Part shown: in pieces, positions 481 through 30,419 of the stretch | Layout: each line of letters starts with the position of its first letter | Numbering within the stretch: the first letter of the stretch is position 1 | IMG/VR virus record: IMGVR_UViG_3300042516_002397 | Coordinates: 1 to 37,025 of that record | Length of the DNA: 37,025 nucleotides | Strand: one strand, 5' to 3' | From: a virus | Translations under genes and position numbers: made by a program | Notes under the pieces: model-generated | What the model was told of the DNA's origin: nothing | Database searches by the model: none | The model's input: only the letters and a program-made list of their open reading frames with translations

Positions 481-1206
481 ATGAAAATATCTAATCTTGG
501 TCCAAATATTTGGTATTACGAAAATGCAATACCAGAATCTAAAAAATTTATTTCTTTGCTTAATGAAAATAATGATAATGAAAGAATTACATCCATAATT
601 CCTAAATGGTCTACATGGATGGACGGGGGACCTAAGAAAGATGATTACTCCCAGTGGAATCAAATTGGATCTCCTATGGGAGAGGATAAATTTATTGACT
701 GGGATCGTACATTAAATGGCTTCGGTAAAATTTGGCCAAAGATACAACCTAACTCAGATGCACATACAGAGGCATATGAGATACTTAAGTTAATAGATAT
801 ACCATTCAATGAGGTAATTGAGCATTATTGGTCTACCCGCCCAAAACTTCCTAAATTAAATTATGTATCTAAAAATTATCCAGTGAGAAAATATAATACT
901 GGAGCTTCCATGGGGGCACATATAGACATAAATAAATATAGCCCATCTATGGACATATCAATATTAATATATTTAAACGACGATTACACTGGAGGAGAAA
1001 TATATTTTAATGATTTAAATTTGAAAATTAAACCAACTGCTGGCTCTATTTTGATTTTCACTTGCAATCATTTACATGAATCTTTACGCATAGAATCTGG
1101 AAATAAATTATATATACCTATGTTTGTGCATTCTGAATATGGCATAATAACTGGATTTAGAGAAGAATATAGCGCCATGCTTCCACTTATTAAAAATAAA
1201 AAATAA
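481..1206 (+). CDS. 2-oxoglutarate/Fe(II) dioxygenase (prolyl-4-hydroxylase-like)
   Basis: This 241-aa protein has the double-stranded beta-helix signature of Fe(II)/2-oxoglutarate oxygenases. The iron site is H147-x-D149 (GAHID) with distal H199, and K209 is the likely 2-oxoglutarate carboxylate ligand. The strand motif ISILIYLNDDYTGGEIYF is the one shared by P4H-like enzymes of this phage. Such enzymes couple decarboxylation of 2-oxoglutarate to hydroxylation of a side chain or small molecule. The N-terminal third (to about residue 125) is presumably substrate-specific. It is a single gene with its own leaderless-type promoter, followed by the two tRNAs. Family assignment is firm; the substrate is unknown. 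Confidence 0.85.
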   Translation: MKISNLGPNIWYYENAIPESKKFISLLNENNDNERITSIIPKWSTWMDGGPKKDDYSQWNQIGSPMGEDKFIDWDRTLNGFGKIWPKIQPNSDAHTEAYEILKLIDIPFNEVIEHYWSTRPKLPKLNYVSKNYPVRKYNTGASMGAHIDINKYSPSMDISILIYLNDDYTGGEIYFNDLNLKIKPTAGSILIFTCNHLHESLRIESGNKLYIPMFVHSEYGIITGFREEYSAMLPLIKNKK

Positions 1207-5200: not shown

Positions 5201-6004
5201 TTATTCCTTAGATATTCTTTCATTCATAAATTTTGTTTTTTCTTCTATAGTATCAGCAAATTTTGGATTTACTTTAAATGGGCTACACCATTCATCTAAT
5301 TGTTGCTCTGTAGGATTTTCGTATTTTCCTATTTGTTCTTGCCATTCTGGGCTTCTGTAGTTATAAAACGTTCCAGGATTATCTTCAGCATTTAATGCAA
5401 AATTAGAAAATACAAATCTTGTACCAGAAGTTGTTTTTTTAGTTCCATGATCGTAAGGTTTACAAGCGCCATGTAAAACAACATCTCCAGCCTCTGGCTG
5501 AACTACAAGACAAGGCTCTTCTAGTCTTTCTTTGCTAATATCTGTTCCATTTTTAATGCTTCCATCTGGATTAATATTTGGGTAAAATAATTCTCCCCCT
5601 GTAAATTGTCCAAAATAGGCAGTCATTCCATATTGTAATGAACAACAAGCAGACCAAGTATCTATTTCAAAAATTTCATCTTCTGCACCCATTCCAGGAC
5701 TGTCGGCATGAACAAACATTCCTTCATCGTGAGGCTCTGCAATCATTAAGCTTCTCATTGGATGTATTACAATTTCTGGATGTATCAGCTCAGACATAAA
5801 TTTCCAAACAAGAAAAGTGCTTGGCATAGGGGGGCAAACCTTATCTTCATACCAGTTATTTGTACTCCATATATTTTGAGGCATGGTTCTTTGAAAATCT
5901 TTTAAATCCTTATTAACCTCATTCATAATTTCTTGAGGAATTATATTTTTGTAAATAAATATTCTATCTGATAGTTTAATACATTTTGGATTGTCGTAAA
6001 ACAT
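5201..6004 (-). CDS. 2-oxoglutarate/Fe(II) dioxygenase, paralogue 1 of a tandem pair
   Basis: This 267-aa protein carries H99-x-D101 (FVHADSPG), distal H186 (YDHGTKK) and R196 for 2-oxoglutarate. The core motif is AYFGQFTGGELFYPNINPDG. Compared with the P4H-like enzymes elsewhere it has a longer loop between the GGELFYPN strand and the QPEAGDVVLHGA strand. It shares most landmarks, including length and the start MFY(N/D)xPxCxKLSDRI, with the gene at 6010-6795, so the pair arose by duplication. Its ATG is 5 nt after the upstream stop with a weak purine tract, suggesting translational coupling. Confidence 0.85.
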   Translation of the reverse strand: MFYDNPKCIKLSDRIFIYKNIIPQEIMNEVNKDLKDFQRTMPQNIWSTNNWYEDKVCPPMPSTFLVWKFMSELIHPEIVIHPMRSLMIAEPHDEGMFVHADSPGMGAEDEIFEIDTWSACCSLQYGMTAYFGQFTGGELFYPNINPDGSIKNGTDISKERLEEPCLVVQPEAGDVVLHGACKPYDHGTKKTTSGTRFVFSNFALNAEDNPGTFYNYRSPEWQEQIGKYENPTEQQLDEWCSPFKVNPKFADTIEEKTKFMNERISKE

Positions 6005-6009
6005 TTTAT

Positions 6010-6795
6010 TTATTTGATCTCTTGTTCATATTTTTTAATTATTTTTTCAAATTGAGGATTTGCTTTAAGTGGCGTATTCCAATTATTTAATTGATCACTT
6101 GTAGGATTCTTATATTTTCCTATTTGATCTTCCCATTCAGGAGTTTTATAATTATAAAAAGTTCCTGGGTTATCTATTCCTAATAAAGCAAAAGTAGAAA
6201 ATGCAACTCTAACCCCAGACCTAGTTTCTCTAGTTCCATGGTCATATGGAGAACATGCCCCATGTATGACTATATCCCCAGGTTCTGGTTGAATTTCTAA
6301 ACAAGGTTCTTCAAATCTTTCCTTTGTTGACTTACTATCTTTTTTTATCGTTCCATCTGGATTAATGTTTGGATAAAATAATTGACCGCCAGTAAATTCA
6401 TTAAAATATGCAATTGCCCCGTATTCTAATTCGCAACAAGTTGTCCATTGATCTATCTCAGAAAGCATATTACAATTTCCTTTTCCTGGACTATCAGAAT
6501 GTACGAACATTCCTTCATCTCCAGGCAAATTAACCATAAAACTGGTTACTGGATGTATGACGAGTTCTGGGTAAATTAAATCAGAAATAAATTTCCATAC
6601 CAAAAAACTACTTTTATAAGATTCGGTCATTTTGTCTTTATACCAATCACGGACGCTCCAGTCATTCTGTAAACTTTCTCTTTCATAAGAAGAAAGATCA
6701 GAATTAACTAAATCCATTATTTCTTTTGGAATTATATTTTTAAATACGTATATTCTGTCTGATAGCTTAGTGCAATTTGGCTTATTATAAAACAT
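6010..6795 (-). CDS. 2-oxoglutarate/Fe(II) dioxygenase, paralogue 2 of a tandem pair
   Basis: This 261-aa protein has H99-x-D101 (FVHSDSPG), distal H186 and R196 in positions identical to its downstream neighbour, and the strand motif AYFNEFTGGQLFYPNINPDG. It is the promoter-proximal gene of a two-gene transcript. The ATG stands 6 nt after an extended -10 box, so the message is probably leaderless. Differences cluster in residues 33-62 and 103-118, probably substrate-facing loops. Confidence 0.85.
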   Translation of the reverse strand: MFYNKPNCTKLSDRIYVFKNIIPKEIMDLVNSDLSSYERESLQNDWSVRDWYKDKMTESYKSSFLVWKFISDLIYPELVIHPVTSFMVNLPGDEGMFVHSDSPGKGNCNMLSEIDQWTTCCELEYGAIAYFNEFTGGQLFYPNINPDGTIKKDSKSTKERFEEPCLEIQPEPGDIVIHGACSPYDHGTRETRSGVRVAFSTFALLGIDNPGTFYNYKTPEWEDQIGKYKNPTSDQLNNWNTPLKANPQFEKIIKKYEQEIK

Positions 6796-8080: not shown

Positions 8081-9070
8081 ATGAATATTTCATTTTCTAC
8101 GCCTATAGTTAACCTAAGAACTAATAATGGATACGGATATGCAAGTAAAAATATAGTAAAATCTTTAAATAATCTAGGACACTTCACTCCATTTCAAGAT
8201 CCAAAATCTAAATTACAATTAAATTTTTCACAACCATCACATTTTAAATTACATAAAAATCAATATCAAATTAGTTATACACCATGGGAATCTACCGTAA
8301 TTCCAGAAGATTGGAAATATTATATGGATGCATGCGATGAAGTTTGGGTAACTTCAGATTGGTGTGCAAATGTATTTGAAGATAATGGCTTTAAGGTTTC
8401 TAATGTATACCCACACGGCATTGATCCTATGTGGATACCAAATAGAAGAAAAGAAAACGGTGTAATTAAATTTTTGCATATAGGAGAACCAGCACCAAGA
8501 AAAGCTGGACAAATGGTACTAGATGCATTTGGTAGCTTGTTTGGAAATAAAGAAGGATATTCGTTAACCATTAAAGCAGATCAAATAAATACAACTAGAG
8601 TATATAACAATTATTTAGATAAAAATATTTTAGGCGTTCCAGATAAATATTACAACAACGTGTCTATAATTACAGATGTTTTGAATGACGAAGAACTTGT
8701 AAGCCTGTATCAGTCTCATGATGTTTTAGTATATCCAAGCTATGGAGAAGGATTTGGATTTATTCCACTTCAAGCACTAGCAACTGGCATGCCAACAATT
8801 TGTACAAGCGGCTGGGCACATTATGAAAAATATTTAGGGCCATTAAAATTAAAATCAGAACTAATAGATTCACCTTGGCCATTCCCACACGAAGGAAAAG
8901 TTTTTGAGCCAAACTATCAACACCTACTTGAACTTATGAGAGACGTTTCAATAAACTTTAATGCATATTCAGGATATTATTTTGCTCAGTCAACTAAAAT
9001 ACATAAAGATTATAATTGGAAACAGTTGACCAAGAATTCATTTGATAAAATTTTAAAAAAACTTAATTAA
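8081..9070 (+). CDS. GT4-like glycosyltransferase
   Basis: This 329-aa GT-B enzyme shows an N-terminal acceptor half with a GYGYASKN loop (17-24), the linker FLHIGEPAPRKAGQMVLDAF where the nucleotide-sugar domain begins (131-150), and the donor site YPSYGEGFGFIPLQALATGMP. The family E-x7-E motif is here E223-x7-Q231, a notable change in the second acidic residue. It would add a sugar to an unidentified acceptor from a nucleotide donor. A short purine tract AGAAAG serves as ribosome site. It is divergent from the lysin operon and upstream of the reductase gene. Confidence 0.8.
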   Translation: MNISFSTPIVNLRTNNGYGYASKNIVKSLNNLGHFTPFQDPKSKLQLNFSQPSHFKLHKNQYQISYTPWESTVIPEDWKYYMDACDEVWVTSDWCANVFEDNGFKVSNVYPHGIDPMWIPNRRKENGVIKFLHIGEPAPRKAGQMVLDAFGSLFGNKEGYSLTIKADQINTTRVYNNYLDKNILGVPDKYYNNVSIITDVLNDEELVSLYQSHDVLVYPSYGEGFGFIPLQALATGMPTICTSGWAHYEKYLGPLKLKSELIDSPWPFPHEGKVFEPNYQHLLELMRDVSINFNAYSGYYFAQSTKIHKDYNWKQLTKNSFDKILKKLN

Positions 9071-19206: not shown

Positions 19207-20544
19207 ATGAGTAAAAGAGCTGGTAGAAAATCACAGTCATCAAATGACTTTTTAGAGCCAAAACCCGTAGAAAATTTAACTGTAACAGATGTTGGAACAA
19301 GTAGGACGTATAACGATGGCGCAGCAGATCTTTCTTGGGAGCTACCAGCTGGATCACCGCCAGCAACTTCTTACTCAATAACAACAAATCCTAGCTCATC
19401 AACTTTTACAACATCAAATACATCATATAGAGTAGAAGGATTATCATCTGACACCTCTTATGTATTTTTAGTAACTGGATCTAATGCTGCTGGAACATCT
19501 GCTGCAACATCATCTAGTTCGACATTAATCACTACTGTACCAGCACAACCTGTTTCTGTAAGCGCATCTTCACCAACTGTAAATCAAGATAGCGTTTCCT
19601 GGTCATCAGGAGGAACTGGCGGTAAGACAATTACAAGCTATACCGTTGTTTCTTCAGATGGACCTGAGTACACAAATCAAACTTCACCAGCAACAATTTC
19701 AGAAACTGGAGGAACATCACAGACCTATACAATTTATGCAATAAATGCTAATGGAACGTCTTTGGGAGCAACCACCGCTTCTGTAACTACAACGGCACCG
19801 TTCTTCCCACCGTTCTTCCCGTACTTCCCACCGTTCTTCCCGTACTTCCCACCGTTCTTCCCGTACTTCCCACCGTTTTTCCCATTCTTCCCGTTCTTCC
19901 CACCGTTCTTCCCGTACTTCCCACCGTTCTTCCCGTACTTCCCACCGTTTTTCCCATTCTTCCCGTTCTTCCCACCGTTCTTCCCACCAAGATTTGGACC
20001 GTTCTTCCCACCAGCATTTGGACCTTACTTCGTCAGATGCGTAGATGGAGACACTTTAATATTAACAAGCGAAGGATTAAAACCTGCTAGAGATATTAAG
20101 ATGGGTGACAAGTTGCTAACAGTAGACGCTAAAGCAATCTCTGAAGAGTCTAACTTTGCACCACTTCAAATAAATGTCAATGATTTGCAAATAGGAAATC
20201 TTGTACACACTGAAGTGACAAATATAATAGCCTCAGATAAAGTAGATAGAGTTTACTTTAACGATGACGTAACAGCTCAATTTACTGAAACTCACCCAAT
20301 ATTCGTAAAGCGAAATAATGAATATCGTGTAGTAGAAGCAGGCACAGTGCAAGAAGGAGATTCTTTAATAAAAATTAATCTAGAGTCTCTAAAAGAAACA
20401 CTGTCTATGCCAGAGGTGATATCAGAAATAGAGGTTACAAAGGTAAATAAAGTAACTTTAGATTCACCAAAAGATGTATACACATTTAGTTGTGATTCAT
20501 ATAACTGGTATTTTGCTGGTAATATATTAACTCACAATAAATAG
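19207..20544 (+). CDS. FN3 / Phe-Pro repeat / Hint (intein-like) surface protein 1
   Basis: The 445-aa protein has three parts. Residues about 20-197 are two fibronectin-III-like domains. Residues 198-275 are almost only Phe, Pro and Tyr (PPFFPYF and PPFFPFFPFF units). Residues 278-444 are a Hint domain: C278 opens CVDGDTLILTSEG, block B is T360-E-T-H363, and the C-terminal block is YNWYFAGNILTHN, ending H443-N444 followed by K445 and stop. Because the +1 residue is Lys, not Cys/Ser/Thr, ordinary splicing is impossible; N-terminal thioester cleavage or transfer to a nucleophile is expected. The ribosome site is AAGGAG. Copy 2 is at 27575. Confidence 0.85.
   Translation: MSKRAGRKSQSSNDFLEPKPVENLTVTDVGTSRTYNDGAADLSWELPAGSPPATSYSITTNPSSSTFTTSNTSYRVEGLSSDTSYVFLVTGSNAAGTSAATSSSSTLITTVPAQPVSVSASSPTVNQDSVSWSSGGTGGKTITSYTVVSSDGPEYTNQTSPATISETGGTSQTYTIYAINANGTSLGATTASVTTTAPFFPPFFPYFPPFFPYFPPFFPYFPPFFPFFPFFPPFFPYFPPFFPYFPPFFPFFPFFPPFFPPRFGPFFPPAFGPYFVRCVDGDTLILTSEGLKPARDIKMGDKLLTVDAKAISEESNFAPLQINVNDLQIGNLVHTEVTNIIASDKVDRVYFNDDVTAQFTETHPIFVKRNNEYRVVEAGTVQEGDSLIKINLESLKETLSMPEVISEIEVTKVNKVTLDSPKDVYTFSCDSYNWYFAGNILTHNK
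19828..19971 (+). repeat. two identical 72-bp tandem repeats coding PPFFPYF units
   Basis: 19828-19899 and 19900-19971 are identical base for base. They lie in a run of shorter 21-bp units that together span about 19793-20030. The plus strand is strongly pyrimidine-rich and the codons (TTC, TAC, CCG) are GC-richer than the rest of the genome. Confidence 0.85.
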
Positions 20545-20551
20545 TAAAATA

Positions 20552-20580
20552 ATTATTAGGGCCCAAAAGGCCCTAATAAT
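20552..20580 (+). terminator. terminator after the Hint protein
   Basis: A perfect 12-bp stem ATTATTAGGGCC/GGCCCTAATAAT with loop CAAAA lies directly upstream of a new promoter, marking the end of the fibre transcript. There is no long U-run. Confidence 0.65.
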
Positions 20581-20581
20581 C

Positions 20582-20610
20582 TTGACAATATATATATAAT
20601 TATATATAAT
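20582..20610 (+). promoter_or_regulatory. consensus promoter of oxygenase operon A
   Basis: TTGACA (20582-20587), exactly 17 nt, TATAAT (20605-20610). This is a perfect sigma-70-type match. A leader with AGAAAG precedes ATG 20634. Confidence 0.85.
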
Positions 20611-20633: not shown

Positions 20634-21353
20634 ATGTCAGATATTTATGATATAGACAGCAATCCTTGGTTTACAAAAGATAGGTCGGAATCAACTTCTT
20701 TTAGAGTAGAAAGATCTTTTGGAAATATTAAAGTTTTAAATCCAGGAATTGGATTAAATATTTATCAATCAGCTATTACAAGCGATGTTTGTGAAACATC
20801 AATTAAAACATTAGAAGATAAATTAACTAACGGATCACTTTATAAATGGTCAGAGGCACAAGTTACAACTTCCGACAAGCCAGTAAAATCTGCAAGAGAC
20901 TGTGTTGATTTTAAATTCAAGCCAGAAAACCTTGGACAAAGAAATGAAAACAATGCAGAACTTTTAGATATGCATAAATCAATATATGATGTATTAAAAA
21001 AATGTATAGATGATTATTGTCAATACTGGGGAATTAATGTAATATATTATGAAGCATTTAACTTTGTAAAATACACAAGCCCAGGACAACACTTTAGAGT
21101 TCATGCAGATCATGGACCGCATTATAATTGTACAGTATCTGCTGTAATTTATTTAAACGATAACTACGAAGGCGGAGAAATAGCATTTCCAAGATTAGAC
21201 AAATTAGTATACAAACCAAAACGTGGTGATGTAGTGATATTCCCATCAAACTATATATATGAACACTCTTCAGAACCAATGATTTCTGGGGATAAGTATT
21301 CAGTTGTAGTTATGATGGATATTAATCTATTAGGACATAAGGAGAACAAATGA
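20634..21353 (+). CDS. 2-oxoglutarate/Fe(II) dioxygenase, operon A gene 1
   Basis: The 239-aa enzyme has H157-x-D159 (FRVHADHGPHYNC), distal H211 and K221 as the likely 2-oxoglutarate ligand. The core strand is AVIYLNDNYEGGEIAFP. The metal loop HADHG with the following YNCTVS is shared only with the next gene, so these two form a subfamily. ERDC/VDFKF-type segments (RDCVDFKF, 88-95) upstream also match. It has the position of a P4H-like enzyme acting on a protein, but substrate evidence is only contextual. It is first of a four-gene operon. Confidence 0.85.
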   Translation: MSDIYDIDSNPWFTKDRSESTSFRVERSFGNIKVLNPGIGLNIYQSAITSDVCETSIKTLEDKLTNGSLYKWSEAQVTTSDKPVKSARDCVDFKFKPENLGQRNENNAELLDMHKSIYDVLKKCIDDYCQYWGINVIYYEAFNFVKYTSPGQHFRVHADHGPHYNCTVSAVIYLNDNYEGGEIAFPRLDKLVYKPKRGDVVIFPSNYIYEHSSEPMISGDKYSVVVMMDINLLGHKENK

Positions 21354-22009
21354 CAAATACTCAGACATGGTCTAGCGCAGAAGATTTAGGTTCTGGAATT
21401 TGGGTGTACAGAGATGTTTTAACAAAAGATTTAAATTTAATTGAAAGATTAGAAAAAGAACTAGATGGCAAGTCTCCAAATTACACCTGGCAACCAGCAT
21501 ATGTTGGATATCAAGAAAGAATGCCAGAGTATAGAGAATGCGTTGATTTTAAATTTAAAAAAACAGACATAGAGCAAGACAAATCAGAAGTTTCTTTATC
21601 TTTACAGCAAATATGGCAAGACTGCTACGACAAACAAGCACCAGCAGTTCAAGATTATTGTAAAAAACATAATATACATAAACTGCAATACTGGGAAGCT
21701 TTTAATTTTATTAAATATGTGCCTGGTCATCACTTTATGGAACATCATGATCATGGGTTCTCCTATAACTGTACAGTTTCATTGGTAGGGTATTTAAATG
21801 ACGACTATGAAGGTGGAGAGTTATATTTTAGATTACAAAATTTAAATATTAAGCCAAAAACAGGAGATTTATACATATTCCCATCTACATATATGTATCC
21901 TCATCAAGCTAAAGTAGTTAAATCAGGAACTAAATATTCTTTGGTTACAATGTTAGATTATAGTGCTAAATTCCATACTCAGGAAATGTATCAAGATACT
22001 GGCAACTAG
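21350..22009 (+). CDS. 2-oxoglutarate/Fe(II) dioxygenase, operon A gene 2
   Basis: This 219-aa protein carries H132-x-D134 in EHHDHGFSYNCTVS, distal H185 and K195, with LVGYLNDDYEGGELYF as core strand. RECVDFKFK and LQYWEAFNFIKY match the upstream gene closely, showing a tandem duplication. The start is coupled (ATGA overlap) with AAGGAG upstream. Expect related but not identical substrates. Confidence 0.85.
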   Translation: MTNTQTWSSAEDLGSGIWVYRDVLTKDLNLIERLEKELDGKSPNYTWQPAYVGYQERMPEYRECVDFKFKKTDIEQDKSEVSLSLQQIWQDCYDKQAPAVQDYCKKHNIHKLQYWEAFNFIKYVPGHHFMEHHDHGFSYNCTVSLVGYLNDDYEGGELYFRLQNLNIKPKTGDLYIFPSTYMYPHQAKVVKSGTKYSLVTMLDYSAKFHTQEMYQDTGN

Positions 22010-22728
22010 TGTCAATACTAAAAGCGTACAAGACTAATCCAGACTCATTTATTATAGAGCCTCTTTCTATAAAAAGAGATTGGATGGAAAACACACCTGA
22101 TAAACATGCTTATCATTGTTTTCCTGTCACTATGGCAAATTCAATTGGCTGGACACTCTCTTGTCCAGTTGATTTAAAATTTATATGGAATGGAATAACA
22201 GATACAACACCAGATACTGTTAAAATATTGTCTGGAGAGCAATACGGATATACTGGTAGAGGACAAGGAACAGTTAGTCTTATGACTGGTTTAATATTTA
22301 AATCAAAACAAGACGTCAGTTTATTAACTATAAATTGTTTAAATTACTTTTATGAAGACTTTGAAGTAATGGCTTCATTAATTAGTACATCATTTTATCC
22401 AAACGAATTACCATTAGCAATAAAAGCAAAAACTGCAAATAAAGAAATTATAATAAAAGCTGGCACTCCAATAGCAACAATTATTCCAATTTCATTAACT
22501 AAATTAAAGGATGAGTTTATAGAAATAGAAAATTTTATACACAATCCAGAATATGCTCAAAAACAAAAAAGTTATGGAGATGCTGCTCAAGAAATAAACA
22601 AATCTGGGCAGTGGACAGACTGGTATAGAGATGCTGTAGATGAAAATAAAAATTCAGTTGGATCACACGAAGTTAAATCATTAAAACTAAAAGTAATAGA
22701 TAATACCTTGGATAAAAATAATGAATAA
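22009..22728 (+). CDS. DUF6065-like protein, GTG start
   Basis: GTG at 22009 overlaps the preceding TAG by one base, with no clear ribosome site, so translation is coupled. The 239-aa product contains HAYHCFPVTMANSIGWTLSC, which I recognise from memory as the DUF6065 type, followed by beta strands and KAGTPIATIIPIS. The predicted fold is beta-rich (possibly jelly-roll). Its C-terminal strands resemble the next protein. The function of this family is not known to me; the linkage to oxygenases suggests a helper or substrate-recognition role. Confidence 0.65.
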   Translation: MSILKAYKTNPDSFIIEPLSIKRDWMENTPDKHAYHCFPVTMANSIGWTLSCPVDLKFIWNGITDTTPDTVKILSGEQYGYTGRGQGTVSLMTGLIFKSKQDVSLLTINCLNYFYEDFEVMASLISTSFYPNELPLAIKAKTANKEIIIKAGTPIATIIPISLTKLKDEFIEIENFIHNPEYAQKQKSYGDAAQEINKSGQWTDWYRDAVDENKNSVGSHEVKSLKLKVIDNTLDKNNE

Positions 22729-23449
22729 TAAAATTAAATTTGTTTCTAATAGACCATGGCTAAACAAAGATAGTATATCAAAACCCTCCCCATCAATTAA
22801 AGAAATACCAGAATGGTTTAGGAAAGCAGATAGATTTGCAATAAATCCATTAACAAAAGATTACTGGAAAGGTCCAGACGGAGGCAAAATACCAACCTGG
22901 AAAGCGTGTCCAGCAATATTTGATATTCTTGGAACAGGATATGTTTTAAAAACTCCATGCGATGTTAAATTTTATTTAAAAAATAATAAAATGTCAGTAG
23001 AAATTAAAGAAGAAAAATATAAAGACTTTTGTTCTGAAAGACAACCAATGCCGCAATTTGTTCATCCGCAGGGATATTATAAAGAACATTTTGCATGGTA
23101 TCCAGACTGGGCAATAGAACTTCCAGAAGGATATAGTGCATTATATACAACCCCATTTAATAGATTTGACTTGCCATTTCTTATGTCTGCAGGAATTGTA
23201 GATAATGATAAAATAAATTTACCAGGTACAATGCCCTTTTTTATTATAAAAGGATTTGAAGGCGTGATTCCAGCAGGAACACCTTATGCACAAATAATTC
23301 CATTTAAAAGAGAAGATTGGCACTCAGAAGTTTTTATAGAAAATCCAAATAGTCTATATAAAAAAAATCAAAATAACAGCGATAAATATAGAGTAAAAGA
23401 TGGTGGAGTTTATAAAAATGAAGTTTGGTCTAAAAGAAACTATGAATAG
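22721..23449 (+). CDS. DUF6065-related beta protein
   Basis: The 242-aa protein overlaps its neighbour by 8 nt. Landmarks are EIPEWFRKADRF, WKACPAIFDILGTGYVLKTP and FIIKGFEGVIPAGTPYAQII. The last of these matches the C-terminal strands of the DUF6065-like neighbour (IKAGTPIATIIPIS), so the two are distant paralogues. No catalytic metal triad is obvious. It closes operon A. Confidence 0.6.
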   Translation: MNNKIKFVSNRPWLNKDSISKPSPSIKEIPEWFRKADRFAINPLTKDYWKGPDGGKIPTWKACPAIFDILGTGYVLKTPCDVKFYLKNNKMSVEIKEEKYKDFCSERQPMPQFVHPQGYYKEHFAWYPDWAIELPEGYSALYTTPFNRFDLPFLMSAGIVDNDKINLPGTMPFFIIKGFEGVIPAGTPYAQIIPFKREDWHSEVFIENPNSLYKKNQNNSDKYRVKDGGVYKNEVWSKRNYE

Positions 23450-23451
23450 GA

Positions 23452-23460
23452 TGGTATAAT
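23452..23460 (+). promoter_or_regulatory. extended -10 promoter of oxygenase operon B, leaderless
   Basis: TG-G-TATAAT two bases after the operon A stop, then AAATAT and ATG at 23467. Confidence 0.7.
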
Positions 23461-23466
23461 AAATAT

Positions 23467-24150
23467 ATGGATAGAGAATTAGCTAATGATACAAAAAATT
23501 ATAACAATAGGATTTCTATAACACCATCTGGATTTTTTGGATCTTCTCCAGATATGATTCAAGCAAGAGAAAATTTTATGACACCAGAAGAGTTAGAATT
23601 CCTATCTAATTGTGCAAGAAATATATCAGAGTGGGACGTCACACAAACACACTATAATGAAAATGGAACAATTATTTATGATTCATCTTATTGGGATAAT
23701 AGGGTAGCGTCTAGACCTATTTTAGATAAAGCGGACCCAGAAATTTCAAATGTTATTGGAAGAATGGTTGATAGATTAAAAATTGAAGTAGATAACTTTT
23801 TTAAAGTCGATGCGTTTCCCACCAGCCCAGCAATAGTAAGGTGGATGCCAGGATATAAACAACTCCCTCATGCTGATAAAGAACTTCATGAGGGATTAGA
23901 CGCAGGAAAACCAAATGATTTTCCGTACTATGACTTATCTGGATTATTTTATTTAAATGATGATTATGAGGGAGGGGAACTATATTTTCCACAGCATAAC
24001 ATACAATTTAAACCAAAACCAGGAGCAGCATATTTTTTTCCTGGAGATATGAATTATATTCATGGTGTTACTGAAATTACAAGTGGCATTAGATATGTAA
24101 TCCCATTTTTTTGGACAATATTAAAGCACACTGGAGAAAAACAACTATGA
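23467..24150 (+). CDS. 2-oxoglutarate/Fe(II) dioxygenase, operon B gene 1
   Basis: The 227-aa enzyme has H135-x-D137 (QLPHADKELHEG), distal H199 (MNYIHGVTEITSG) and R209 as the 2-oxoglutarate anchor. The core strand is SGLFYLNDDYEGGELYFP followed by FKPKPGAAYFFPG. Of the set it is closest to canonical prolyl 4-hydroxylases in the H-G-V...G-x-R-Y end. It is leaderless and first of a five-gene unit. Confidence 0.87.
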   Translation: MDRELANDTKNYNNRISITPSGFFGSSPDMIQARENFMTPEELEFLSNCARNISEWDVTQTHYNENGTIIYDSSYWDNRVASRPILDKADPEISNVIGRMVDRLKIEVDNFFKVDAFPTSPAIVRWMPGYKQLPHADKELHEGLDAGKPNDFPYYDLSGLFYLNDDYEGGELYFPQHNIQFKPKPGAAYFFPGDMNYIHGVTEITSGIRYVIPFFWTILKHTGEKQL

Positions 24151-24968
24151 GCAAAGAGATAGAGTTTATCTCTATATATCCTAAAATAAATGTTTATAAA
24201 AATGTTTTTAATGATGTTGATAGTTTTTTAGAAAAATCAAAAAAATTAACTAGTTGGGATTCATGGTATACATTTGGGGAAATGACTGCATTAGCAGAAA
24301 AAGTTTTAGAATTTGATAATTTTCCAACAAGAAATGAATTTATAAATTCAAGAGATTGGGAAATTAATGAAAATGAGTTTGAAAAACAAATTAAAAAAAC
24401 ATTATCTATAGAGGTGGGAGAAATTTTTTATGATGTAACCAGTCATTTTCTAAAAATGTACCCAGAAACCTCTTTACCAAATTACTATAAACAATCAGCT
24501 TCAATTAATAAATATATTAAAAATGGTGAAGGCGTATCTAAAAATTATTTTATGAATTACCATACAGATTTCGTACAAGCAGAAAAAGAGGTCCCAGGTA
24601 ATAAATTTGGCATAACTACTACTTTTTACCTTAACGATGACTATGAAGATGGCGAAATTTGTTTTAAGATTAATGATGAGTTTATTTCTTATAAACCAAA
24701 AAAGGGAGACGTAATTGTTTTCCCTTCAAGACCACCGTACTACCACGGAGTTAAAAAAGCTTTTGGAAACGATAGATATATGATAAGATCTTTTTGGCAA
24801 TATAAATATGAAGGTTCAAAAGAATGGCTAGATAATCAAAAAAAATATGGAAAAGACTTATGGGCACAGATGGAAAAAGAAAGAATAAAAGAAGAAGCTT
24901 TTGATAATCAAATAGATTCAGAATCTGTAAATAGATTTATGGGAAAAGATAATGGTAAATATTTATGA
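24147..24968 (+). CDS. 2-oxoglutarate/Fe(II) dioxygenase, operon B gene 2
   Basis: I use the ATG at 24147, which overlaps the previous stop as ATGA and has GGAG about 10 nt upstream; a frame open from 24111 would overlap needlessly. The 273-aa protein has H139-x-D141 (NYHTDFVQ), distal H200 (PPYYHGVKKAFG) and R210. The usual core EGGE is EDGE here (YLNDDYEDGEICF). A long acidic C-terminal extension (residues 225-273) ends with KDNGKYL. Coupled in turn to the CDGSH gene by ATGA. Confidence 0.85.
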   Translation: MSKEIEFISIYPKINVYKNVFNDVDSFLEKSKKLTSWDSWYTFGEMTALAEKVLEFDNFPTRNEFINSRDWEINENEFEKQIKKTLSIEVGEIFYDVTSHFLKMYPETSLPNYYKQSASINKYIKNGEGVSKNYFMNYHTDFVQAEKEVPGNKFGITTTFYLNDDYEDGEICFKINDEFISYKPKKGDVIVFPSRPPYYHGVKKAFGNDRYMIRSFWQYKYEGSKEWLDNQKKYGKDLWAQMEKERIKEEAFDNQIDSESVNRFMGKDNGKYL

Positions 24969-25084
24969 AACAATGTACTTGTGGAAGGTCTAATGCGTAT
25001 CCATATTGCGATGGTACACATAAATTAAAAAAAATACAAAAAGAAGAAAATTTAGAGATTAAAGCAAAAGAGGAAAAAGAATGA
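24965..25084 (+). CDS. 39-aa CDGSH iron-sulfur (mini-mitoNEET) protein
   Basis: The frame begins MKQCTCGRSNAYPYCDGTHK and satisfies the CDGSH motif exactly: C4-x-C6-x2-S-x3-P-x-C15-D-G-T-H19. This motif binds one [2Fe-2S] cluster through three Cys and one His. The remaining 20 residues are a Lys/Glu helix. At 39 aa it is among the smallest possible forms and would act as a homodimer or tandem. Both ends overlap neighbours as ATGA, which strongly supports translation. It may donate iron or electrons to the surrounding Fe(II) oxygenases; that is inference. Confidence 0.85.
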   Translation: MKQCTCGRSNAYPYCDGTHKLKKIQKEENLEIKAKEEKE

Positions 25085-25845
25085 AAAATGGAATTATAGA
25101 ACATATAGATAAATCTAATTTTATTTATTTGCAAAACGAAGAAGTTCCTGTTGATAAAATGGGAGTCCTTGGTGTTAAAGTAAATACAATAGTAGAAATT
25201 CCTAATTTTATAGATCCTCAAATTGTTCCAAAAATGATAAACTTTTTTGAAAATTGTGATGTTGACTGGGGAGATATTGCATTTTATGGATCATCTGGAA
25301 AAGGAATTAAAACAGATGCAGAAACAATGAAAAAATTTGATCTCCCAGAAGGATTTTTTGATAAATTAAAAGATAAATATCAAGAAGCAGTTCAAACAGT
25401 ATTTGAAAGAGAAGTTAGGGCAAATACATCTCATGCACAAAAATGGGACATTGGAGGATTTGCAAGCCCGCACTCAGATAATTCAGATAATGATGGAAAA
25501 CCAAATGCTTTTGAAATAAATAAATATGTAGGAATATTGTATCTTAATGACGACTATGAGGGCGGAGAACTATACTTTTGTGATAAAGATAATAATATGG
25601 AAACGTATTTATCGTTTAAACCAAATGTTTATTCTTATTATGTTTTTCCTGGTGGTTATGAAAATATTCACGGAGTATCAGAAATAACTAAAGGTACAAG
25701 ATACACCATGGTTTCATTCTGGGACTACGCAGATTCAGTTTATGATCAAGAAACATTAGATCGATGGGAAGAAGAAGAAAAAGAAGTAAGAAGGCAACAA
25801 GCAATTCAAAAAGAAGAATGGCTAAAAGGAAACAAATATGCTTAA
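25081..25845 (+). CDS. 2-oxoglutarate/Fe(II) dioxygenase, operon B gene 4
   Basis: The 254-aa protein has ribosome site AGAGGAAA, H131-x-D133 (ASPHSDNSDNDG), distal H197 (ENIHGVSEITKGTRY) and R207. Core strand: GILYLNDDYEGGELYF, followed by an insertion (CDKDNNMETYL) before FKPNVYSYYVFPGG. A charged C-terminal helix (EEEEKEVRRQQAIQKEEW) may serve docking. Its start overlaps the CDGSH stop and its end overlaps the next gene by 8 nt. Confidence 0.86.
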   Translation: MKNGIIEHIDKSNFIYLQNEEVPVDKMGVLGVKVNTIVEIPNFIDPQIVPKMINFFENCDVDWGDIAFYGSSGKGIKTDAETMKKFDLPEGFFDKLKDKYQEAVQTVFEREVRANTSHAQKWDIGGFASPHSDNSDNDGKPNAFEINKYVGILYLNDDYEGGELYFCDKDNNMETYLSFKPNVYSYYVFPGGYENIHGVSEITKGTRYTMVSFWDYADSVYDQETLDRWEEEEKEVRRQQAIQKEEWLKGNKYA

Positions 25846-26440
25846 TGTAGAAAGATTTGATAAAATATCTTACTACAAAAATGTTATAAAAAATCCAGAA
25901 TCTTTAATTGATTTAATAGAGGCATCAGATAAAAATTTAAATAATAATACAAGTATTCCTGTATGGCAAGAATGGATTGCAAGCGGGGACGAAGAGTATG
26001 TTTTTGGATATCAAAAAAGATTTAGTAGCTCTGTCGAATACGATACAGACCAGGATATACAAAAAATAAACTATATTCTTAAAAAAGCAATAGTCGACTC
26101 GTCAGAAGATTATTCAAAATATTATTCAATAAATATAGGTAGCCTAATGCCATTGTCTATAAGTAAATATTCTACTGGAAAATCTATGGGGCCACATGTT
26201 GATGATTATAATAACGGAGATGACCCTAATATATCAGTAGTGCTATATCTTAATGATAATTATGAAGGTGGAGAAATTAATTTTCCAAATCAAGATATAA
26301 CTATAAAGCCAGAAGCAGGAAGCATTGTAATATTTCCATCTGTGGAGCCCTACTACCATCAGTCTTTACCAGTTATTTCTGGAATTAAATATATGTCTCC
26401 TGGATTTTGGCGTAAAACCCAACAAGGTGGTATAATTTAA
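25838..26440 (+). CDS. 2-oxoglutarate/Fe(II) dioxygenase, operon B gene 5
   Basis: At 200 aa this is the most compact member: H120-x-D122 (MGPHVDDYNNG), distal H174 (PYYHQSLPVISG), K184, and core VVLYLNDNYEGGEINFP. The KYSTGKSMGPHVD segment closely matches KYNTGASMGAHID of the separate oxygenase at 481, so these two are sister genes far apart in the genome. The -10 box for the collagen-like fibre lies inside its last codons. Confidence 0.86.
   Translation: MLNVERFDKISYYKNVIKNPESLIDLIEASDKNLNNNTSIPVWQEWIASGDEEYVFGYQKRFSSSVEYDTDQDIQKINYILKKAIVDSSEDYSKYYSINIGSLMPLSISKYSTGKSMGPHVDDYNNGDDPNISVVLYLNDNYEGGEINFPNQDITIKPEAGSIVIFPSVEPYYHQSLPVISGIKYMSPGFWRKTQQGGII
26428..26436 (+). promoter_or_regulatory. 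extended -10 promoter of the collagen-like fibre, leaderless
   Basis: TG-G-TATAAT embedded in the last codons of the upstream oxygenase, then TTAAAA and ATG at 26443. Confidence 0.65.
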
Positions 26441-26442
26441 AA

Positions 26443-27573
26443 ATGGCCACTATTTCAAATGATAAAAACTGGAGATTTCCAGATTACACAGACTCCCCAG
26501 ACATCCCAAGAGACATTTCATATTTAGCTGCTGATATTTCTGAATATATTGACAATCATCCTGGTCCAACTGGCGCAACTGGCGCAACTGGCGCAACGGG
26601 GCCATCAAACGTTTTATCTGTAGGAACAGTAACAACTGGAAACGCAGGCTCATCTGCCTCAGTTACAATTGCGGGCACATCGCCAAGCCAAACAATAAGT
26701 TTTACAATTCCTCGTGGAGATACTGGTGCAACTGGCTTAACTGGCGAACAAGGAATTCAAGGCGTACAAGGTATTCAAGGCGAACAAGGTATTCAAGGAC
26801 TTAAAGGCGACAAAGGAGACACAGGAGAAACTGGAGCAACTGGTGCAACTGGACCAACTGGGCCACAAGGTGAACAAGGTATCCAAGGCATACAGGGAAT
26901 TCAAGGAGAACAGGGAACTGGTGTTAATATACTTGGCTCTTATGCAAACTTAACAGCGCTACAAGCAGCACATCCTACTGGAAGTCCTGCAGATGCATAT
27001 TTAATTAATAATGATTTATATGTTTGGTCACAATCAACATCTTCTTGGATAAATGTTGGAACAATAAGAGGTCCACAAGGAGATCAAGGAATACAAGGTA
27101 TTCAAGGACTTAAAGGCGACAAGGGAGACACAGGAGATACTGGTGCAACTGGCGCAACTGGTCCGCAGGGTCCGCAAGGAGAACAAGGCATACAAGGAAT
27201 TCAAGGTATTCAAGGAGAAACTGGTTTAACTGGAGCAACTGGAGAAACTGGTGCAGCTGGACAAGATTTAGTTTCAGTATTTACAATTGCACAAAAATCT
27301 TCATCTTACACAATAGTATCTTCAGATCTTGGAAAGCTAATAGAAATGTCAAGCGGAGGAACTATAACCGTACCGACAGACTCAGAGATATTTGCCGTAG
27401 GATCAACAGTTGATATTGTTCAAACTGGATCTTCACAAGTTACAATTGCAGGAGATACAGGTGTTACTGTTAATGCAACTCCTGGATTAAAATTAAGATC
27501 ACAATGGTCATCTGTAACATTAATAAAAAGAGGAAATAATCTTTGGGTTGCACTTGGCGATTTGAGCGCCTAA
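26443..27573 (+). CDS. collagen-like tail fibre protein
   Basis: The 376-aa protein has three Gly-X-Y tracts (about 41-54, 92-159 and 210-274) with GATGAT, GEQGIQGIQG and GLKGDKGDTG units, separated by beta modules (SYANLTALQAAHPTG and DLYVWSQSTSSWINVG, both common on fibres). Prolines occur in X positions; four lysines (121, 124, 224, 227) occupy Y positions before Gly, the context used by lysyl hydroxylases. The C-terminal domain (GDTGVTVNATPGLKLRSQWS) is shared with the 16729 fibre. It is a collagen-type triple-helical shaft beside six hydroxylase genes. Confidence 0.85.
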   Translation: MATISNDKNWRFPDYTDSPDIPRDISYLAADISEYIDNHPGPTGATGATGATGPSNVLSVGTVTTGNAGSSASVTIAGTSPSQTISFTIPRGDTGATGLTGEQGIQGVQGIQGEQGIQGLKGDKGDTGETGATGATGPTGPQGEQGIQGIQGIQGEQGTGVNILGSYANLTALQAAHPTGSPADAYLINNDLYVWSQSTSSWINVGTIRGPQGDQGIQGIQGLKGDKGDTGDTGATGATGPQGPQGEQGIQGIQGIQGETGLTGATGETGAAGQDLVSVFTIAQKSSSYTIVSSDLGKLIEMSSGGTITVPTDSEIFAVGSTVDIVQTGSSQVTIAGDTGVTVNATPGLKLRSQWSSVTLIKRGNNLWVALGDLSA

Positions 27574-27574
27574 A

Positions 27575-28549
27575 ATGCCAAAATCAAGTCGTGGTAGACA
27601 CGGAGTAAGAAAAACTTCAGTTCCAAATATTACTGGACAATCTTATACTACTACGCAAACATATTTAACAAATTTAGGATTTATATACATACAAACAACC
27701 ACAGATACAAATACAGAATCAAATAATTTAGTAATATATTCACAAGGATTAACTAGCGGATCAGTAGTACCACTTGGAACACCTATACCATTTCAGTATT
27801 ATGTTTATGTCCCACCATTCTTTCCACCTTTCTTTCCACCTTTCTTTCCACCTTTCTTTCCATTTTTCCCACCAGCCTTTCCTTTCTTCCCAGATTTTCC
27901 ACCATACGTCCCACCAGTTGAGCCAATCCCACCATTCTTCCCATTCTTCCCATTCTTCCCACCAGCATTTCCATTCTTTCCATATTTTGCACCACCTTTC
28001 TTTCCATTTTTTCCACCAGCATTTGGTCCATACTTTACAAGATGCGTAGATGGAGATACCTTAATACTAACTAGCAATGGTCCAAAAAAAGCTAGAGATA
28101 TTAAAATTGAAGATGTGCTTTTAACAGTTAATTTAGAATCATTAACCGAAGAATCAAATGCAACTCCATTACAAATTAATGTGCAAGATTTGAAGTTAAA
28201 TAATTTAGTACATACTAAAGTTACAAATGTAATTGCTTCTAATAAAGTGGAAAGAGTATATTTTAACAACGATAAAACAGCTCAATTTACTGAAACTCAT
28301 CCAATATTCGTAAAACGCAATAACGAGTATCGTGTAGTCGAAGCAGGCACAGTTCAAGAAGGAGATTTTTTAATAACTATTAATCCAGATGAATTATCAG
28401 AAAATTTAGATATTAATAAAATTATATCAGAAACAGTGGTCACTAAGGTAAATAAAAATATTTTAAATCTTGAAAAAGATGTTTATACATTTAGCTGCGA
28501 TCCATACAATTGGTATTTTGCAGGAAATATATTAACACACAATAAATAA
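27575..28549 (+). CDS. PASTA / Phe-Pro repeat / Hint surface protein 2
   Basis: This 324-aa protein keeps the architecture of 19207 but swaps the binding domain. Residues about 14-78 (VPNITGQSYTTTQTYLTNLG ... GSVVPLGTPIPF) form a PASTA domain, which in bacteria binds peptidoglycan. Residues 79-155 are Phe/Pro/Tyr repeats (PPFFPPFF, PFFPFFPPAFPFFP). A Hint domain runs from C157 (CVDGDTLILTSNG) through TETH242 to H322-N323-K324. The RYVYF...FAGNILTHNK C-terminus is nearly identical to the other copy. It has no clear ribosome site and is probably coupled to the collagen-like gene two bases upstream. Confidence 0.85.
   Translation: MPKSSRGRHGVRKTSVPNITGQSYTTTQTYLTNLGFIYIQTTTDTNTESNNLVIYSQGLTSGSVVPLGTPIPFQYYVYVPPFFPPFFPPFFPPFFPFFPPAFPFFPDFPPYVPPVEPIPPFFPFFPFFPPAFPFFPYFAPPFFPFFPPAFGPYFTRCVDGDTLILTSNGPKKARDIKIEDVLLTVNLESLTEESNATPLQINVQDLKLNNLVHTKVTNVIASNKVERVYFNNDKTAQFTETHPIFVKRNNEYRVVEAGTVQEGDFLITINPDELSENLDINKIISETVVTKVNKNILNLEKDVYTFSCDPYNWYFAGNILTHNK
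27815..28040 (+). repeat. degenerate Phe/Pro repeat array (copy 2)
   Basis: CCA/CCT and TTT/TTC codons build PPFF and PFFP units, less regular than in the first Hint gene and without its 72-bp exact duplication, so the arrays evolve independently under the same amino-acid constraint. Confidence 0.75.
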
Positions 28550-28568: not shown

Positions 28569-30419
28569 ATGTCATATAAGATTAAAATATTAAAAGACCA
28601 TCCAGTTGGATTCTGGCAACTAGATGACGTTGCAGTAAATCCAACTTTTGACTTTACTGATATTTTAGATAAATATGATACATACCAAGATCTTCTAGAT
28701 GCGTATGAAGAATATGGAAACATTAACTATTTAGCAGAAGACAGTTCTGGATGCTCTAATTTTGGTTTATATGTAGGAGACTTTAATAATAATCCAAAAC
28801 ATTTTCCTTTATCTCCAAGCGGTAATCATTCTATAGAAATTACATCCTCTAAAAGCATAGAATTTCCAATTGTTAATAGTTATTATAAAAACAATGCTCC
28901 TGGAGGATTTGGTACAATTTATTATGGAGATAATGATTTTACACTAGAATGCTGGATGTATCCAGAAATAAGTACAGACTCTTTAACTACAATATTAGGA
29001 GACAGTACAAAAAATGTTGGAATATTTTATGAAAATGGAAACATAATTTTTAAACTAGGTCAAGAAATTTTAGAACATACTTTACCATTTATTAATAAAT
29101 CTATACACATAGCCTGCGTGTATTCAGTCACAGAAGCTCACATATACATAGATGGTAATCTTTGTGTAAGTAAATTAATATCATCTAATCCATTTACAAA
29201 CAATGAAATATTATTAACTTCTGGACCTACATCAGACTCAGACGATAAGTTTTTAATAGATGACGTAGCGGTATATAGATACGGGCTGCCTTATGTAAAA
29301 ATACTAGATCACTATTCTAATCATAGCCATACTAATCCTTCTCAAATATCTCAAACAGATAATGGAGAATTTTTTGAATTTTATGACACCGATATAAGTA
29401 AAGTTTTTACATATTCTTATCCTTTTAATAGAACATGGGAAGAATTAATAACAGACGATTTATATTATGATCAAACAAATAAGTATATTCAAATTAAAAA
29501 AGGCGAAACTCTTGATAGCAAAACAGTTATATTGACAGATACTATATATTTACCAGCGGCGACAATTATGGATTCTTCAAAAATAGAATGGTTTGCGGAT
29601 AATGGGATAACTGTTCAAACCAGTACAGACGGAATAAACTATAGCGCATGTGTAAATGGAGAATCTATTCCACAATACAAAAGTTCAGAATTTAGTAGCA
29701 GTAAGGTTTTAAATATAAAAATAATAATGTCTTCTGGAAACATATCTAAGTATCTACCAAAATTATATAATTTAGATATTAGTTTTTATAATAATCAAAT
29801 AATGTATTCTAAAAATGGATCAAGTTATTTATCAAAAATTCAAGGCCTAGATTTTTATTTAGGTAAAGATGTGTATTCAATTGTAAATAGAGATCCGAGA
29901 AACGGGGCATTGGTCCCAGAAAACTCTGGATTTAAAATTAATCTTTCTGAATTAAAGCAGTCTATAGAATTTTTTTATACTCCCTATTCTTTAAACAAAA
30001 GCCTACTTGTTAGCTCTATTGTAAACGGAGTAGGAGCGGCTAGCGAATATTCATGGAATACAAATGGGTCAATTAATAAAACAAATATAGCCTCTATATA
30101 TGTTAATGGGGTAGATGTATCTTCCCAAACCCTAATATCTAATATATTTAAGGTAAATGATATACACCATGTCGTTATTAATTTTACAGCTCCAATATAT
30201 GGGGAAGTTACAGTAAATTATAAATCCTCTGGATCAGTTAAATCTTTATATCAATATATGTCATTTTATAAGGAATTGCTAGACTATAATAAGATTATTA
30301 ATCATTATGATTTATATACCTCTAGGCAGTCCTATCAAACCAGCGGATCTTCCATAACCTTGTCCGAAAATTCAATAAACCTATATAATAATGACTGGCT
30401 TGTGATACAAAACTCATAA
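28569..30419 (+). CDS. LamG/concanavalin-A-like tail protein
   Basis: The 616-aa protein has CAGGGGAT as ribosome site. Residues about 110-240 form a LamG-type jelly roll: NDFTLECWMYPE, then IHIACVYSVTEAHIYIDGNL and FLIDDVAVYRYGLP, the classic strand pattern for sugar-binding lectin domains. A second beta-rich half (ELSITSPF-like repeats, VNGVDVSSQTLIS) ends the protein. It probably binds host-surface glycan and is the last adhesion gene before the head module. Confidence 0.75.
   Translation: MSYKIKILKDHPVGFWQLDDVAVNPTFDFTDILDKYDTYQDLLDAYEEYGNINYLAEDSSGCSNFGLYVGDFNNNPKHFPLSPSGNHSIEITSSKSIEFPIVNSYYKNNAPGGFGTIYYGDNDFTLECWMYPEISTDSLTTILGDSTKNVGIFYENGNIIFKLGQEILEHTLPFINKSIHIACVYSVTEAHIYIDGNLCVSKLISSNPFTNNEILLTSGPTSDSDDKFLIDDVAVYRYGLPYVKILDHYSNHSHTNPSQISQTDNGEFFEFYDTDISKVFTYSYPFNRTWEELITDDLYYDQTNKYIQIKKGETLDSKTVILTDTIYLPAATIMDSSKIEWFADNGITVQTSTDGINYSACVNGESIPQYKSSEFSSSKVLNIKIIMSSGNISKYLPKLYNLDISFYNNQIMYSKNGSSYLSKIQGLDFYLGKDVYSIVNRDPRNGALVPENSGFKINLSELKQSIEFFYTPYSLNKSLLVSSIVNGVGAASEYSWNTNGSINKTNIASIYVNGVDVSSQTLISNIFKVNDIHHVVINFTAPIYGEVTVNYKSSGSVKSLYQYMSFYKELLDYNKIINHYDLYTSRQSYQTSGSSITLSENSINLYNNDWLVIQNS

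Follow-up and report, generated by a model that had tools for sequence, protein, structure and literature searches.

IMG/VR virus record IMGVR_UViG_3300042516_002397, analysed here as a single record of 37,025 bases (the window, by which we mean this whole stretch of DNA), raises the question of what a bacterial virus does with nine 2-oxoglutarate (2OG)-Fe(II) oxygenases, six of which are crowded into positions 20634-26440. Oxygenases of this kind, including those of the prolyl 4-hydroxylase (P4H) type, are often found among the "auxiliary metabolic genes" of aquatic phages, and the 2OG-Fe(II) oxygenases of phages have been assumed to serve metabolism or DNA repair (PMC3037559, PMC9602691, PMC11288001). 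One survey states that the viral use of prolyl 4-hydroxylase "remains cryptic" (PMC9301287). Comparison of this locus with its relatives points to a different role: the oxygenase set probably hydroxylates a virion adhesion protein that carries a repeat of Phe and Pro, (F/Y)FPP, referred to below as the FFP repeat. The genes on which this proposal rests are as follows.

19207..20544, + strand: FN3, (F/Y)FPP-repeat and C-terminal Hint protein, 445 amino acids (fn3, 41.4 bits)
20634..21353, + strand: P1, P4H-type 2OG-Fe(II) oxygenase (PF13640; H157, D159, H211, K221)
21350..22009, + strand: P2, P4H-type 2OG-Fe(II) oxygenase (PF13640; 41% identical to P1)
22009..22728, + strand: D65a, DUF6065 family protein (PF19541, 99.3 bits, cut-off 26.6; phrog_7084 match)
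22721..23449, + strand: D65b, second DUF6065-like protein (phrog_7084, 126.6 bits; without a PF19541 match)
23467..24150, + strand: P3, P4H-type 2OG-Fe(II) oxygenase (PF13640)
24147..24968, + strand: P4, P4H-type 2OG-Fe(II) oxygenase (PF13640; the open reading frame opens with TTG at 24111, and the ATG at 24147 overlaps the P3 stop as ATGA)
24965..25084, + strand: CDGSH-type iron-sulphur mini-protein, 39 amino acids, MKQCTCGRSNAYPYCDGTH... (PF09360, 32.0 bits, cut-off 29.5)
25081..25845, + strand: P5, P4H-type 2OG-Fe(II) oxygenase (PF13640)
25838..26440, + strand: P6, P4H-type 2OG-Fe(II) oxygenase (PF13640)
26443..27573, + strand: collagen-like protein with 150 amino acids of Gly-X-Y (GXY) in three runs
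27575..28549, + strand: PASTA-like, FFP-repeat and C-terminal Hint protein, 324 amino acids (PASTA, 21.8 bits, below cut-off)

A sequence-only reading of this DNA had described six P4H-like oxygenases with intact active sites, filling two adjacent operons between Hint protein genes, and three more elsewhere. The enzymes are as it described them. All six pass the PF13640 Pfam cut-off of 27 bits (34.6-50.9 bits), the other three lie at 481, 5201 and 6010, and an alignment of all nine shows no variation at the His and Asp residues of H-x-D...H, with a Lys or Arg anchor at the 2OG position in 9/9. The flanks are also as claimed, with the FN3-FFP-Hint gene (19207-20544) before the cluster and the collagen-like (26443-27573) and PASTA-FFP-Hint (27575-28549) genes after it. 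Nine oxygenases, which that reading called very many, are indeed many for a 37-kb fragment but no record, since relatives of the window phage have 10-12 by PF13640 alone and the 229-kb cyanophage S-SCSM1 has 24 2OG-Fe(II) oxygenase genes (PMC9602691). The cluster is not filled by oxygenases only: two DUF6065 genes, D65a and D65b, lie between P2 and P3 and had been overlooked, as had the CDGSH gene. The division into two operons had to be rejected, because the supposed gap at 24968-25081 is filled by the open reading frame of the CDGSH protein. With this gene occupying the space between P4 and P5, P1 through the PASTA-FFP-Hint gene form a single run (20634-28549) of 11 genes with gaps of at most 17 nucleotides, in which the collagen-like and PASTA-FFP-Hint genes are included.

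Pro makes up about 40% and Phe 40-45% of the FFP segments. In the FN3-FFP-Hint protein the segment spans residues 198-277 (36 F and 32 P of 80) and is followed by a Hint domain at 278-445 with Cys1, a TETHPIF block and a terminal THNK-stop; its Intein_splicing score of 33.0 bits falls just under the cut-off of 35.8. The PASTA-FFP-Hint protein has its segment at residues 81-156 (31 P and 30 F of 76) and its Hint domain at 157-324, scoring 26.6 bits, below the same cut-off. The catalytic Cys1, the TxxH block and the C-terminal HN are present in both window proteins and in their clade. Both chains end in HNK-stop and thus have no C-extein, and the C-extein with Cys, Ser or Thr at +1 that marks a splicing intein is absent. 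FFP proteins of relatives likewise begin with FN3 or PASTA parts and continue with a run of FFPP, YFPP or FFPF units, and their C-termini vary: Hint, Hint without Cys1, a small Cys-rich tail, or nothing. The FFP proteins of loci L072, L073, L075, L087, L088 and L126 end in a Hint-like domain without Cys1 (e.g. EYSIASETGILTTEGIKSAKDIVVGD...), which looks inactive for thioester chemistry; the FFP repeat and the oxygenases are retained there. The second Hint gene has 13, 20 and 18 FFP motifs in the close relatives L009, L010 and L015, and this difference suggests fast change in repeat length.

To place the locus among its relatives, viral sequences were searched using the Hint domain, P1 and D65b as queries. 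At least 147 loci were collected, several of which overlap as parts of the same contig, and the query P1 had at least 592 confirmed relatives. FFP loci were sought in viral contigs by a DNA pattern for FFPPFF, blind to oxygenases, and control loci by the collagen DNA pattern GIQGIQ. Prevalence figures for FFP, collagen and P1 loci, here and below, come from samples, being counts among the matches listed and not totals. With at least 5 kb available downstream, a P4H gene lies within 6 kb of 36 of 41 in-frame FFP loci versus 3 of 44 collagen-repeat controls. DUF6065 genes are found near 50/92 FFP loci and 0/114 collagen loci. On contigs of at least 20 kb, PF13640 exceeds its cut-off in 34/35 FFP contigs versus 2/35 collagen contigs, and the FFP contigs mostly carry 5 to 12 copies each. 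The reverse test gave the same picture: among 40 contigs with diverged relatives of P1 (found through P1, 60-66% identical), 37 have an FFP gene no more than 6 kb upstream and two others have it further upstream, which makes 39 loci with FFP, while Hint occurs within 6 kb upstream in 4 and collagen repeats on the locus in 6. The recurrent gene order is [FN3-FFP(-Hint)] P1 P2 D65a D65b P3 ..., with P1 D65b P2 D65a P3 ... as an alternative. P1, P2, P3 and both DUF6065 genes are co-inherited with an FFP-repeat gene in many uncultured phage contigs. Two other candidates for the defining partner were rejected: Hint, present at 11/92 FFP loci and 4/40 diverged P1 loci, and collagen, whose repeats are accompanied by oxygenases at 3/44 loci and on 2/35 contigs, and which in the window has no Pro in Y positions.

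The FFP set is not one lineage, since the portals of its members are 74-96%, 50-53% or undetectably similar to that of the window, and two FFP contigs without a close portal match carry other portals. A T4 portal model had no match anywhere, from which we draw no conclusion. The sequence-only reading had proposed a fibre-modification system, which is strengthened by the fibre island, by the single run shared with fibre genes and by the FFP association. Its expectation of oxygenase clusters beside fibre genes also held in the neighbourhood search, but the constant partner is the FFP repeat and not Hint or collagen. The finding that this reading had named as refuting it, a cluster away from fibre genes and lacking Phe-Pro substrates, was sought among the relatives and essentially none was found.

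The oxygenases themselves are well preserved. All four catalytic positions are kept in 606 of 610 distinct homologues of the cluster oxygenases, and this, together with a gene order kept in dozens of contigs, argues that the cluster is not a chance assembly. In a phylogenetic tree P1, P2, P3 and P5 each group with their orthologues from 21-25 loci in a clade of their own (support 0.80-1.00), while the orthology of P4 and P6 across loci is less uniform. Were the paralogues redundant or decaying, such sets would hardly be conserved intact. A profile of the family centred on P1 and P2 has as its nearest PDB relatives bacterial P4H, PKHD enzymes, LH3, P3H1, the P4H of PBCV-1 and EGLN1, almost all of them peptide or protein hydroxylases; mimivirus L230 is also among the profile relatives, and a Tet-like dioxygenase is a weak one (1.4e-5). 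The structural check proposed earlier for every enzyme was made for P1, the sole oxygenase modelled, and prolyl hydroxylase folds came out nearest. Its AlphaFold2 model (predicted local distance difference test, pLDDT, 92.5) has the double-stranded beta-helix fold, and its top Foldseek matches are prolyl hydroxylases with E values down to 6e-12, the nearest being algal P4H (including a Ser-Pro peptide complex), P. putida P4H, PHD2 and PBCV-1 vCPH. Based on orthology, fold and gene association, P1-P6 would be nonredundant prolyl hydroxylases acting on the FFP-repeat proteins as their putative substrate.

Two kinds of smaller protein accompany these enzymes. The CDGSH mini-protein, MKQCTCGRSNAYPYCDGTHKLKKIQKEENLEIKAKEEKE in its full 39 residues, has the exact C-x-C-x2-S-x3-P-x-C-D-G-S/T-H motif, and its PF09360 match covers 17 of 48 positions. 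Its gene overlaps P4 and P5 by ATGA at start and stop. In relatives L018, L029, L037, L040 and L225 the CDGSH domain forms an in-frame N-terminal extension of P5, which strongly hints that CDGSH and P5 act together.

For the DUF6065 proteins, a literature search returned no paper. The AlphaFold2 model of D65b (pLDDT 96.2) has a core resembling dUTPases, among viral relatives too. Foldseek matches to dUTPases have probability 1.00, template modelling (TM) scores of 0.24-0.35 by query length and an E value of 9e-4 at best; the match spans about half of the protein, and the profile match is weak (E 0.34). Read by eye only, dUTPase motif 1, GYD, is GYV or GWT in the D65 proteins, while D65b retains GIxDxD and AGTPYxQ-like stretches. 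Because of the half-length fold match and the altered first catalytic motif, we label D65b as having a dUTPase fold and not as a dUTPase. dUTPases are mostly trimers, as are many tail fibres, and on this parallel one might guess, and it is a guess only, at an assembly role for D65. The family is also found in a second context: in haloviruses of the HF2 group, DUF6065 relatives (L027:7758-8627 and those of other members) adjoin the genes for DNA polymerase and thymidylate synthase, and the annotation shows no oxygenase in their vicinity. In bacteria DUF6065 occurs in 2/297 genomes, and the neighbourhood is uninformative, with unrelated genes around the homologue seen.

A mechanism consistent with these observations would run as follows. 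P1-P6 would hydroxylate prolines of the (F/Y)FPP repeats during protein synthesis, with different enzymes serving different sequence contexts or sites. The idea of the sequence-only reading that every enzyme has its own site is compatible with the orthologous families P1-P5 remaining distinct from locus to locus. By hydroxylation these strongly hydrophobic repeats would become soluble and take on a defined shape. The CDGSH protein may keep the catalytic iron of P5, and perhaps of others, reduced or supplied, and the DUF6065 proteins may be nonenzymatic binding or assembly factors. In the clade of the window, Hint could turn the C-terminus of the completed FFP segment into an activated thioester, through which the segment is released or joined to some other component of the virion. 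The end result would be a hydroxylated fibre at the surface, making contact with the host cell. Taken as a whole, this would be a new protein material, namely hydroxylated Phe-Pro fibres made by site-specialised hydroxylases with a CDGSH partner and dUTPase-fold DUF6065 proteins, with Hint in some clades cutting the chain or ligating it onto the virion; we advance this fuller picture tentatively, as a possibility somewhat less likely than not.

Several observations weigh against the proposal that the oxygenases hydroxylate an FFP-repeat adhesion protein. A close homologue of the window's portal is present in 23 of the 42 FFP contigs tested, so the adjacency partly reflects shared ancestry; related contigs within the FFP and P1 samples are not independent, and the collagen control contigs were not matched for habitat or lineage. 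Five of the 41 FFP loci listed have no oxygenase nearby, and one contig of 36.8 kb (L166) encodes a 917-residue FFP-repeat protein with no PF13640 match on the contig, the sole clear exception at contig level. We infer that the FFP proteins are virion fibres from their FN3 domains and position only. Pro is presumed to be the modified residue, with Phe, Tyr, Lys and Asn as alternatives. Lastly, the position of halovirus DUF6065 genes beside thymidylate synthase keeps a nucleotide role open.

This last point belongs to an alternative in which the cluster modifies DNA or nucleotides, producing oxidised bases, and the dUTPase-fold DUF6065 proteins are nucleotide enzymes or binders. The dUTPase-like core of D65b, the halovirus neighbours and the weak Tet-like profile relative (1.4e-5) all fit it, but peptide hydroxylases are far closer relatives, inspection by eye finds GYV or GWT in place of GYD in dUTPase motif 1, and the cluster lies among fibre genes and tracks FFP repeats, so that we regard it as quite improbable. 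We also considered that the substrates are mainly the collagen-like or other fibre proteins, modified at Pro or Lys of GXY as in collagen biosynthesis or by mimivirus L230, with the FFP repeats as bystanders. The collagen-like gene begins 2 nucleotides after P6 in the same run, its product has 4 Lys in Y (GLK, GDK), which is a lysyl hydroxylase context, and the profile relatives include LH3 and mimivirus L230. Pro, however, occupies 0 of 50 Y positions, which makes this protein a poor substrate for a collagen P4H and sets the locus apart from collagen P4H systems, whose substrates have Pro in Y of Gly-X-Y. Among the matches listed, moreover, collagen repeats occur on just 6/40 diverged oxygenase-bearing loci and such oxygenases on 2/35 collagen-repeat contigs. 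We therefore judge this alternative unlikely.

A different possibility is that the FFP proteins are modified by the oxygenases but end up as secreted or cell-surface products, such as Hint-released peptides or a coat on the host surface. Many FFP proteins end in Hint or small Cys-rich tails, and FN3 and PASTA are also typical of cell-surface proteins; the genes are nevertheless part of the late structural region, with fibre-like genes on one side and the portal on the other, and beyond Hint there are no obvious processing enzymes, which leaves a secreted product rather unlikely, though worth keeping in mind. The published view of cyanophage 2OG-Fe(II) oxygenases (PMC3037559, PMC9602691) would instead have these genes serve metabolism as auxiliary enzymes, changing host metabolites or 2OG levels. 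That view leaves unexplained why at least 6 distinct orthologous enzymes stand beside an FFP gene across phages with different portals, and we consider it very improbable here. Hydroxylation of an FFP-repeat virion protein remains our preferred explanation. If it is true, a large class of phage genes moves from host metabolism to virion protein chemistry, the presence of many different oxygenases within one genome is explained, DUF6065 acquires a role and the known repetitive protein materials a new member. Gene association here names a specific and testable substrate, the Phe-Pro repeats of an adhesion-type protein encoded alongside the oxygenases.

The run is preceded by two regulatory elements.

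20551..20581, no strand: hairpin of 14 pairs after the FN3-FFP-Hint gene, a probable terminator
20582..20610, + strand: promoter TTGACA-17-TATAAT upstream of P1, a perfect consensus

Across the window's clade, 11 distinct intergenic variants retain the exact promoter hexamers, and the hairpin before them is kept in the aligned clade variants with a differing stem sequence. Promoter-like near-matches are not rare by chance in such AT-rich sequence, so the weight of this assignment rests on conservation. In diverged relatives the region mostly scores no higher than shuffles, which makes the promoter a clade-level feature.

Beyond the run lie the remaining oxygenases and the gene that follows the fibre island.

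481..1206, + strand: Pa, seventh PF13640 oxygenase (42.6 bits), outside the cluster and of uncertain membership in the system
5201..6004, - strand: Pb, divergent 2OG-type oxygenase with H-x-D...H...R, without a Pfam match
6010..6795, - strand: Pc, paralogue of Pb, without a Pfam match
28569..30419, + strand: LamG/concanavalin-like protein, the next gene, between the island and the portal

A Pfam profile search gave no match for either Pb or Pc. The genes most like them lie inside the FFP clusters of other phages (L075, L076, L088), which suggests that oxygenases may join or leave the cluster. Two glycosyltransferases are encoded at 1430-2071 and 8081-9070 (DXD sugar-binding type, GT1-like), the latter syntenic with Streptomyces phages, and could glycosylate hydroxylated residues by analogy with collagen. 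A gene of the glutathione-peroxidase family at 2920-3552 (GSHPx, 2e-15) is unusual in a phage; it may have a part in the redox protection of the iron oxygenases.

The portal of the window is 56-59% identical to those of Streptomyces phages of the Stanwilliamsviridae, and the gene order SLT (lysozyme-like, -), glycosyltransferase (+), ribonucleotide reductase (RNR, +), ..., portal, protease, major capsid protein is that of BillNye and Jay2Jay. The host likely belongs to the Actinomycetota. A search of genome contigs with P1 gave one contig of a metagenome-assembled genome labelled Chitinophagaceae, which is probably a binned phage contig and allows no host call. In the window, RNR and portal are separated by a 17-kb island of fibre-like genes that ends with the oxygenase operon. 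BillNye and Jay2Jay have only a few genes between the reductase and the portal; for all their portal identity and local synteny they lack the fibre/oxygenase island, and no FFP motif is present in the stretches read.

The kind of system proposed here is already known, from viral prolyl hydroxylation in PBCV-1 and from cyanophages with multiple oxygenases. Among 50,697 records of cultured phages we found no near-identical DNA, no Hint relatives and no DUF6065 relatives outside haloviruses, and the best tblastn matches of P1 and P3 are about 24-30% identical. The combination of P1-P3, paired DUF6065 and FFP, to which the window's clade adds CDGSH and Hint, was found neither in these records nor in the literature searched, where FFPPFF returned only a mushroom peptide and unrelated papers and proline hydroxylation of phage virions gave no relevant paper. 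Uncultured phages carry the module widely, hundreds of them keeping oxygenases paired with FFP-repeat proteins, but in cultured phages these searches did not find it. Elsewhere DUF6065/phrog_7084 proteins have unrelated bacterial neighbours or a halovirus thymidylate synthase, whereas two copies paired with P4Hs are a characteristic of this module. The Hint domains resemble Hint/BIL-type domains in their Cys1, TxxH-type block (TETHPIF) and C-terminal HN and differ from them in lacking a C-extein and in following an FFP repeat.

Collagen hydroxylase systems, including mimivirus L230 (PDB 6AX6), also direct 2OG oxygenases at repetitive structural proteins, and the operon of the window has a collagen-like gene; the collagen-like protein, however, lacks Y-position Pro, and collagen is dispensable to the module. 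The P4H of PBCV-1, encoded by a lone gene, acts on short PAPK-type proline-repeat peptides. Its structure (vCPH, PDB 5C5T) resembles P1 as a virus-encoded P4H fold (TM 0.57/0.74), but the window differs in having six paralogues, two DUF6065 genes and a CDGSH gene beside Phe-Pro repeats in a bacterial virus. A passage in PMC9301287 cites Eriksson et al. 1999 for the proposal that the PBCV-1 enzyme hydroxylates proline in viral proteins.

A parallel in gene arrangement is S-SCSM1, a T4-like cyanophage unrelated to the window phage, which has many PF13640-type oxygenases, some in runs directly beside tail-fibre genes. In this cyanophage (MK867354; L028:5005-9469) four consecutive 2OG-Fe(II) oxygenases are followed by two tail-fibre genes, and SSCSM1_245 has an Arg/Pro/Phe-rich repeat of ~220 amino acids (RQPRNYRQPR..., RAPFNFRAPVPFRVP...) between fibre domains; no full-length copies of this protein were found in other cultured phages. 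The literature reads the cyanophage sets as metabolic or DNA-repair genes, unlike the reading we favour for the window. The presence of oxygenases beside a Pro/Arg/Phe-rich fibre in S-SCSM1, a single parallel, suggests that the principle may be wider than the FFP module.

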